Below the pieces are notes generated by a model. That model was not told the DNA's origin. It saw only the letters and a list, made by a program, of their open reading frames with translations, and searched no databases. DNA of 33,005 bases from a virus: IMG/VR virus record IMGVR_UViG_3300035698_010390, positions 1-33,005 of that record; one strand, given 5' to 3'. Positions within the stretch are counted from its first letter, which is position 1, and each line of letters begins with the position of its first letter. Made by a program: the position numbers and the translations under genes. Positions 4,446 to 6,055 of this stretch are shown here, piece by piece.

Positions 4446-4523
4446 TGGTACACCCACTCAGACTCGAACTGAGAACCTCTCGCTTATGAGGCGAGTTATC
4501 TAACCGATTGATATTATAGGTGC
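4446..4523 (-). tRNA. tRNA with CAT anticodon: Met, or Ile2 if lysidine-modified
   Basis: A clean tRNA. Acceptor GCACCTA/TGGGTGT includes C4-G69 and C5-G68 pairs, with discriminator A and encoded CCA. D stem is TATC/GATA. Anticodon stem CTCGC/GCGAG carries loop CTCATAA. T arm is CTCAG-TTCGAGT-CTGAG. A TilS gene lies less than 1 kb away. From memory, consecutive C-G pairs at 4-69 and 5-68 favour TilS recognition of tRNA-Ile(CAU), so an isoleucine identity is a fair guess. Confidence 0.9.
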
Positions 4524-4570
4524 TTATGGTTTTCTTTATAAGATAGTCACCAGGCTTGGGCAGACAAGGA

Positions 4571-4837
4571 TTATTTCGCCGTCACTGGTGTCCAGCAGAT
4601 ATCCAGATTTACCAACATAACTTGTCGGTTTGAGTCTCCCTTGCTGATGGTACTAATCGTACCGTCTCTATATTCAAACTTTTCGGATTCATTTAACTTG
4701 CAGCAAACCCTCCGAGAGTCTGGCCCATCCATCACATAGATAAAATTCTCAGTCACTTGAACATCCGCCTGGGTGAGCGGGTAGCGGCCACTCATTTTGG
4801 ATGTGATATGAACTTCTGTCTTTCCGAAATCACTCAT
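4571..4837 (-). CDS. Hypothetical protein, 88 aa
   Basis: No family recognised. Probably a small beta-rich protein (TEVHITSKMSG, ENFIYVMDG, QVMLVNLDI). Its ATG lies within the last codons of the preceding coiled-coil gene, so the two are translationally coupled. It is followed by the CAT tRNA. Confidence 0.65.
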   Translation of the reverse strand: MSDFGKTEVHITSKMSGRYPLTQADVQVTENFIYVMDGPDSRRVCCKLNESEKFEYRDGTISTISKGDSNRQVMLVNLDICWTPVTAK

Positions 4838-5042
4838 CTTTATTCTCCCATCTTAGCATTTCATTTTCAATCTCAGCAATGCCATTAAGATGACTCTGAA
4901 TCCAATTTTGTGTTTCAGTCACAACAGCTTTGTGTCGTCTGTGTTCCTCGTCGAGCCGCAGATTTGCGTCTCTCCATTTCTGCTTTCTGTACTCAAGTAT
5001 CTCCAGAGTACGTTTTTGATATTCTGGCGACGTAGTATCCAC
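4830..5042 (-). CDS. Short coiled-coil protein, 70 aa
   Basis: Almost wholly charged and helical (TLEILEYRKQKWRDANLRL through IAEIENEMLRWENK), with heptad-like spacing. It starts at a GTG with a strong AAGGAGG site. That site lies at the base of a nested hairpin structure in the leader (5050-5113), so its initiation may be controlled. Overlaps the next gene by eight bases. Confidence 0.6.
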   Translation of the reverse strand: MDTTSPEYQKRTLEILEYRKQKWRDANLRLDEEHRRHKAVVTETQNWIQSHLNGIAEIENEMLRWENKDE

Positions 5043-5049
5043 TGCCCCT

Positions 5050-5113
5050 CCTTGCCCCGTTTGGCCTCTGGTTGACCCCTACACCGTAGGCGCGACCAGA
5101 CGCCCCGTCAAGG
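5050..5113 (-). promoter_or_regulatory. Nested stem-loop leader covering a ribosome binding site
   Basis: Three nested stems can be read on the minus strand. The outer stem is CCTTG (5109-5113) with CAAGG (5050-5054). The middle stem is TCTGGT (5095-5100) with ACCAGA (5067-5072). The inner stem is CCTAC (5086-5090) with GTAGG (5078-5082), with a 3-base loop. The outer 3' arm is part of the AAGGAGG site of the coiled-coil gene at 5042. The stretch is GC-rich. Pairing is seen directly; regulatory function is inferred. Confidence 0.4.
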
Positions 5114-5154
5114 GCTATTCTGGGCCTGGTAGGCGATCGTCTGTCTGATAAAAT

Positions 5155-5307
5155 CTAAGACTCTGCTGCCCGATCATTTGATAACCAAGGGAATCCACTT
5201 GTGTGCTTCCTCATTAGTTCCAAAAGTAACATATCCTTGTCAATAATTTCGCTGCAATTAACTACAAGTCCCTCTTCTTGTGAGATCGTGTGATCTGCCT
5301 TTGCCAT
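5155..5307 (-). CDS. Small hypothetical protein, 50 aa, probably 66 aa after frame repair
   Basis: ATG frame with sequence such as HTISQEEGLVVNCSEIIDKD and LLLELMRKHTSGFPWL. It stops after NDRAAES. Re-reading one T at TCTT gives a coherent continuation (LDFIRQTIAYQAQNSP) to a stop at 5108-5110, so one base is probably missing. Short proteins that end in a helix like this are common in phages. No function known. It follows TilS after a 31-base gap. Confidence 0.5.
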   Translation of the reverse strand: MAKADHTISQEEGLVVNCSEIIDKDMLLLELMRKHTSGFPWLSNDRAAES

Positions 5308-5338
5308 AATGACTATCACAAATGTCTTCAATCATTGA

Positions 5339-6055
5339 TCAACCTCCGTGTTCGGCGCAATATCCTTCTGGGCCGAAATTTTTCAAACATGGTTTCCCGC
5401 ACACGTCACAAGTCCATGGGGTGGGCAGGCTGTTCACCCATTTCATAGTTTCCTTCCTTCGGGACTCGCCGCCCGATGCTCGTAACTTCTTCTTCAAGAT
5501 AGTGTCAATACCGTTTACTTCTCGGTAAAGAGGAACCAAGTTGTGGCGAATGAAATTTCTCTTAAAAGACATGTCTCCATTTGAAGGATCTTCAATAAAT
5601 GGCACGCTCTTTTCAGTACAATACTCTCTGAGAGTTTCCTTTGTATTTAGTAGCAGCGGGCGAATAATGTTATCTCTCGCTGAAGGGATTAGTTTTGGTA
5701 GCCCGTGAGCCGAAGAAAAGATCCACCATTCCAATACATCGTCAAGTTGGTGCCCTGTGATTACGGGGTCGCTGAAGGTTTCAAAGAATTTATATCTATG
5801 GTTCCTCCAGAACTCTTCTTTGGAGCTTGTTGGATTTTCAGCAACATAGGATACCATACATAGAATTTTTCGCTTTCTGCAATAATCTACAACAAATTCC
5901 TGGAAAGCATTACTATGTTCGGTTCCGTGATTGACATGTAGGACTGTGATTTCCTTCTTTCCTTTGATACAAAAATCAAGAAGTGCCATCGAATCACAAC
6001 CACCAGACACAGCAATATTAATTTTAATTGGAATCTTTTCGAGAAGGTGGATCAT
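5339..6055 (-). CDS. tilS: TilS-like tRNA(Ile)-lysidine synthase, short form with extra zinc-ribbon tail
   Basis: TilS adenylates C34 of tRNA-Ile(CAU) and attaches lysine, changing the decoded codon from AUG to AUA. The PP-loop SGGCDS is at residues 17-22. Later come VLHVNHGTEHS, the GHQLDD segment, IRPLL, and EDPSNGDMSFKRNFIR, all in family order. Length is 238 against about 430 in E. coli, so the C-terminal tRNA-binding domains are absent, as in short TilS forms. The last 30 residues instead carry CDVCGKPC and YCAEHG, a possible zinc ribbon. A CAT tRNA lies at 4446-4523. ATG with AGGAATAA upstream. Confidence 0.85.
   Translation of the reverse strand: MIHLLEKIPIKINIAVSGGCDSMALLDFCIKGKKEITVLHVNHGTEHSNAFQEFVVDYCRKRKILCMVSYVAENPTSSKEEFWRNHRYKFFETFSDPVITGHQLDDVLEWWIFSSAHGLPKLIPSARDNIIRPLLLNTKETLREYCTEKSVPFIEDPSNGDMSFKRNFIRHNLVPLYREVNGIDTILKKKLRASGGESRRKETMKWVNSLPTPWTCDVCGKPCLKNFGPEGYCAEHGG

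Follow-up and report, generated by a model that had tools for sequence, protein, structure and literature searches.

A single-domain lysidine synthase and a CAU tRNA as a candidate enzyme–substrate pair for reading AUA in a phage

The window, i.e., the whole stretch of DNA that we analysed (a linear virus record of 33,005 bases), carries a gene for a short tRNA(Ile)-lysidine synthase, TilS, and close to it a CAU tRNA that we assign as tRNA-Ile2 (Table 1). We consider it highly probable that the phage holds an enzyme–substrate pair, TilS with tRNA-Ile2, for reading AUA, a rare codon for isoleucine. The preliminary description of this DNA had proposed a phage-owned tRNA-Ile for AUA. Several findings support this proposal: the tRNA carries Ile-type determinants, CAU tRNAs are linked to tilS in other phages, C4-G69 and C5-G68 pairs are enriched in the linked tRNAs, and the tilS genes themselves avoid AUA.

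Table 1. Features in and around the tilS–tRNA region of the window
Feature	Position	Strand	Basis
tilS, single-domain tRNA(Ile)-lysidine synthase, 238 aa	5339..6055	-	TIGR02432, AlphaFold model, tree
C-terminal tail of tilS, zinc-ribbon-like Cys/His motif	5342..5488	-	motif read
Small ORF of unassigned function, tilS/tRNA interval	4830..5042	-	ORF list
Small ORF of unassigned function, tilS/tRNA interval	4571..4837	-	ORF list
tRNA(CAU), assigned as tRNA-Ile2	4446..4523	-	ARAGORN, Rfam, determinant bases
tRNA cluster, six genes: Ser-GCT, Phe, His, Gly, Pro, Ser-TGA	646..2936	-	ARAGORN

The two genes had been described as lying 0.8 kb apart, and TIGR02432, ARAGORN and Rfam bear this out. The tRNA is found downstream of tilS, 816 nt from its stop codon and on the same strand, with the two small ORFs in between. 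A PHROG search with the ORF at 4571..4837 gave no match. In the tRNA cluster, five of the six genes passed the Rfam gathering score and Ser-TGA failed it.

Several other features of the window were observed. At 361-624 (minus strand) there is an N-terminal piece of EF-Tu, 87 aa long with an early stop, followed in another frame by a DPPW (MT-A70-like) methyltransferase; the piece may be a truncated phage EF-Tu or the result of a frameshift or a join. The protein encoded at 7705-8865 (minus strand) matches HAD_SAK_2, a domain found in RNA-repair proteins (E 1e-28), and is perhaps linked to tRNA repair. The IMP dehydrogenase encoded at 18931-21099 (GuaB, minus strand) seems to contain an intein-like insertion past the active-site region. 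At about 29.95 kb, GC content rises from 0.40 to 0.61-0.71; the stretch that follows (29950-33005) has other phage genes (DUF669, AAA_24 ATPase). The step is either the join of a chimeric contig or a mosaic boundary.

The window TilS scored 120.4 bits against TIGR02432 lysidine_TilS_N (cut-off 93.6, E 8.5e-35) and 120 bits against Pfam ATP_bind_3; no TilS family in PHROGs matched it. In the alignment numbering, its D106, E109 and R170 correspond to D137, E140 and R205 of A. aeolicus TilS, positions which we take to have a role in lysine binding. These three residues, as well as the motif S17-G-G-x-D-S (S17-S22), are invariant across 45 phage TilS. At two other places the window copy departs from its relatives: it has Q103 at a position that is nearly invariantly His in phage TilS, and the NPG motif of phage TilS reads NG, with the Pro gone. 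An AlphaFold model built with the alignment of 45 sequences reached a pLDDT of 89, as against 49 (poor) for a single-sequence model. The best PDB matches of the model in Foldseek were the A. aeolicus TilS structures 2e21, 1wy5 and 2e89 (E 1e-13), and the predicted fold aligns with 2e21 at a TM of 0.72 on the query. The modelled chain stops past the linker helix, apart from a low-confidence tail of 30-40 residues, and both CTD1 and CTD2 are missing. Since its catalytic domain scores above the cut-off and no CTD follows, the window TilS belongs to the TilS family but to neither of the published types.

In these types, the catalytic domain is followed by CTD1 and CTD2 (type I) or by CTD1 (type II), through which the enzyme touches the tRNA (PMC12514573). 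Bacterial enzymes of both types (E. coli, G. kaustophilus; A. aeolicus, M. smegmatis) have in common with the phage enzymes the PP-loop catalytic domain, the SGGxDS motif, the acidic and Arg positions, and the fold, whereas the phage clade has neither CTD. Its members consist of the catalytic domain and a linker helix, with an NPGI..KK signature in the end helix. Among the matches listed, phage TilS are 195-240 aa long (the norm being ~195-215, and one 620-aa ORF being left out of the range) versus 288-463 aa for bacterial relatives. One 204-aa bacterial TilS (L127) looked like a short bacterial form, but this candidate was rejected as it is frameshifted and its CTD continues in another frame. 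Phage TilS and 79 bacterial TilS form separate groups on the tree (SH-aLRT 99), in which the bacterial sequences were the 80 best matches and not a full survey; the window TilS clusters with the phage ones (SH-aLRT 99). Among these predicted proteins, a short TilS is the norm of a separate phage clade that has neither of the tRNA-binding domains.

The tail is a different matter. The last ~25 residues of the window TilS contain the motif C-x2-C-x3-C-x10-C-x2-H, and the pLDDT of the model is about 48-61 across the last 40 residues. This Cys/His tail, an extra when compared with bacterial types I and II, occurred in none of the 232 other phage TilS that we read. It had no relative in Pfam, INPHARED or ~360 loci and fell into no recognisable zinc-binding family in Pfam, and the window copy seems to have acquired it recently. 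The preliminary description was right about a short TilS with such a motif. Its idea that the tail stands in place of the C-terminal domains does not hold, as the whole phage family is without those domains and the tail occurs in the window copy only.

As for the tRNA, ARAGORN finds it and labels it Met. With permissive filters it scores 54.9 bits against the Rfam tRNA model, the fast default filter misses it, and it has one extra base ahead of the D-stem. The acceptor stem (GCACCTA/TGGGTGT) reads as C4-G69 and C5-G68, the pairs noted in the preliminary description, and U12-A23, C29-G41, A37, A38 and A73 are also present. The bacterial Ile determinants are A73, C4-G69, U12-A23, C29-G41, A37 and A38, and the Met determinants are U4-A69 and A5-U68 (PMC9976931). 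Thus, the window tRNA has the full Ile set plus C5-G68, and the Met pairs are absent. Additionally, it has G1-U72 and not the C1xA72 mismatch of initiators, so that neither Met pattern (U4-A69 with A5-U68, or C1xA72 with a G-C rich anticodon stem) is seen in it. E. coli metT and metZ were read for comparison, and ileX read directly against metT displayed the expected Ile/Met contrast. These bases agree with the earlier proposal of a tRNA-Ile. The determinants of E. coli TilS are C4-G69, C5-G68 and G27-U43 (PMC12069591); at the last of these positions the window tRNA has C27-G43. TilS identity elements differ between species (PMC12514573), and G27-U43 is a minor, species-dependent one. In a plain alignment, the four nearest CAU tRNAs were all adjacent to tilS in other phages.

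Searching IMG/VR with the window TilS as a single sequence found no relative, whereas alignment-based scans succeeded. From these scans we took the best 80 of 408, 576 and 445 matches, in overlapping sets. Linkage was studied in 56 other phage TilS clusters with <70% identity between clusters, among the matches listed. In all 13 of those with any tRNA within 300 nt of tilS, the nearest tRNA was CAU, as compared with 30 of 348 other tRNAs (p=1.6e-13, among the matches listed). This rejects chance adjacency of the two genes. In five cases (L007, L034, L044, L066, L071) the adjacent CAU tRNA was the sole tRNA within 14-20 kb. The C4-G69 pair was present in 14 of 19 tilS-adjacent CAU tRNAs versus 3 of 24 at >1.3 kb; 11 of 19 versus 2 of 24 had C5-G68 along with it. 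Adjacent tRNAs without C4-G69 include those of L011, L056, L071 and L345.

Along the TilS tree, the presence of a CAU tRNA within 1 kb of tilS switches at least 11 times, so the linked clusters do not simply represent one inherited arrangement. In the DnaE lineage of the window, TilS was found in 2 of 22 records, most of which are fragments, so TilS is not fixed in that lineage. At the level of predicted genes, the pairing of tilS and CAU tRNA is general across many large phages. In two phages of 0.6 Mb (LR756502 and LR745206), tilS is not adjacent, and each has a CAU tRNA with C4-G69 and C5-G68. These two phages also carry tRNA-Ile(UAU) (L002 8502-8575; L003 7224-7298 and 30424-30495) in addition to TilS and the Ile2-type CAU tRNA, and would apparently have two routes for reading AUA. 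A CAU tRNA is often close to bacterial tilS as well (among L109, L134, L135, L144, L147, L155, L156, L161, L091 and L137), being Met-like in bacilli and Saccharibacteria and Ile2-like in L091 and L137.

In the window, AUA makes up 22% of Ile codons (14.6 per 1000 codons) versus 35% expected by composition, and none of the 17 Ile codons of its tilS is AUA. Across 57 clusters of phage tilS among the matches listed, we observed 74 AUA codons versus 219.7 expected from the same loci (O/E 0.34, z -12), with 53 of the 57 clusters below expectation. Both AUU and AUC make up for the missing AUA. A replication on 17 clusters independent of the first set gave 17 versus 60.0 expected (O/E 0.28). No avoidance was seen in genes within 1.5 kb of phage tilS (O/E 0.98) or in bacterial tilS (O/E 1.19 for the whole gene, 0.99 for the catalytic domain). 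The next departing codon in phage tilS was TGC (Cys), with 58 observed versus 88.5 expected (z -4.2), and other codons were not comparable to AUA.

Avoidance as a trait of tilS alone is, however, weakened by other genes. Among 13 recurrent phage families, three others significantly avoid AUA (O/E 0.13, 0.43 and 0.58, the last ClpP-like). One of these, a small family with a signal-peptide-like start observed at 9 phage loci, has 4 AUA codons versus 29.9 expected, a stronger effect than in tilS. As other families avoid AUA too, its avoidance in tilS is suggestive only. That tilS is short of AUA so as to be translatable before AUA decoding works fits the data but is not proven.

In the mechanism that we propose, phage TilS would activate C34 of the CAU tRNA with ATP and attach lysine, forming lysidine. 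The anticodon would change from Met-charged and AUG-reading to Ile-charged and AUA-reading. The phage would supply both the tRNA and the modification it needs, and would neither compete for nor rely on host TilS. Such a supply may matter if parts of the host translation machinery are scarce or degraded during infection. Because phage TilS is without CTD1 and CTD2, it would have to tell Ile2 from Met tRNAs by other means. We infer lysidine formation by the window TilS, isoleucylation of the tRNA and benefit to the phage. It is worth stressing that several observations speak against the proposed pair: Q103 and the lost Pro in the enzyme, C27-G43 in the tRNA, the adjacent CAU tRNAs without C4-G69, the tRNA-Ile(UAU) of the 0.6 Mb phages, the other families that avoid AUA, and the use of AUA in the window below its expected share.

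It is possible, with somewhat less than an even chance, that phage TilS is a supplement of dosage: host TilS can modify the phage Ile2, and the phage enzyme adds capacity as phage tRNA and AUA demand rise. The fairly frequent use of AUA in the window is consistent with it, as are phages that seem to manage with the host enzyme. T4-like phages have a CAU tRNA sharing Ile signatures with that of the window; the passage on them describes no phage-encoded TilS and attributes the modification to the host (PMC1524935), whereas the window has its own TilS. Likewise, k2C34 was measured on one vibriophage tRNA(CAU) and was apparently host-made, with no phage TilS mentioned in the passage on it (PMC13191261). 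The avoidance of AUA in phage tilS instead suggests that AUA reading is limiting when the enzyme is made, an argument softened by the same avoidance in other families.

It is very unlikely that TilS acts mainly on host tRNAs, restoring Ile2, keeping the host viable or altering host Met tRNAs. A role in host viability was a speculative proposal by the authors who reported TilS in the phage MIJ3 in 2019, with no link drawn to a phage tRNA (PMC6892783), and substrate choice might be loose without CTDs (PMC12514573). Yet the tight linkage of tilS to phage CAU tRNAs and the Ile-type pairs in these tRNAs point to a phage substrate, and indiscriminate modification of Met tRNAs would presumably also hurt phage translation. 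MIJ3 itself is an exception to the pairing, as none of its three CAU tRNAs has C4-G69. The TilS of MIJ3 and PA5oct (Arenbergviridae, Pseudomonas jumbo phages) falls in the same clade as that of the window, is 44% identical, and has a single domain of ~203 aa. It differs in having no tail and in its CAU tRNAs, which lie 7-10 kb off and are without C4-G69, versus 816 nt with C4-G69 in the window.

We regard it as comparably improbable that the window copy is a decayed or repurposed PP-loop enzyme that lost TilS activity, its tail marking another role. Q103 in place of His, the loss of the NPG Pro and a tail unique to the window would fit such a fate, but the ORF is intact, every invariant motif residue is kept, the TIGR02432 equivalog-domain cut-off is passed, and tilS is free of AUA. 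Least credible of all is a CAU tRNA of the Met kind, elongator or initiator, whose nearness to tilS is coincidental: ARAGORN labels it Met and Met-like CAU tRNAs do occur near tilS in bacilli and Saccharibacteria, but its acceptor stem has none of the Met pairs or the initiator mismatch, and its closest CAU tRNAs are those linked to tilS.

The enzyme and the tRNA of the proposed pair have precedents in phages. TilS has also been reported in some pelagimyophages and in the Ralstonia phage RsoM2USA, where Ile was the one amino acid for which no tRNA was reported (PMC8504454). The latter resembles our case in combining a jumbo phage TilS with many tRNAs, and differs in the length of its TilS (349 aa). 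The gap for Ile probably arose because its CAU tRNAs were all called Met. In the literature covered, which included few subscription papers, we came across no description of tilS linked to its tRNA, of a TilS clade without CTDs or of a tilS that avoids AUA, and these points may be new. Phage TilS and phage tRNA-Ile2 are each already known, and a minimal TilS with its substrate tRNA would be the new combination.

Taken as a whole, the phage enzymes may represent a third type of TilS, in which the catalytic domain selects Ile2 on its own, without CTDs, and which forms a cassette with its substrate and is encoded by a gene kept nearly free of AUA for early translation; we consider this extended view as probable as its opposite. 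TilS sets a CAU tRNA as Ile or Met, and in the accepted account the CTDs are credited with this choice. Single-domain phage TilS beside their likely substrates would make minimal lysidine synthesis directly testable. Additionally, many of the phage genes annotated as 'tRNA-Met(CAU)' near tilS are probably tRNA-Ile2, and this would change the counts in studies that match codons with tRNAs.
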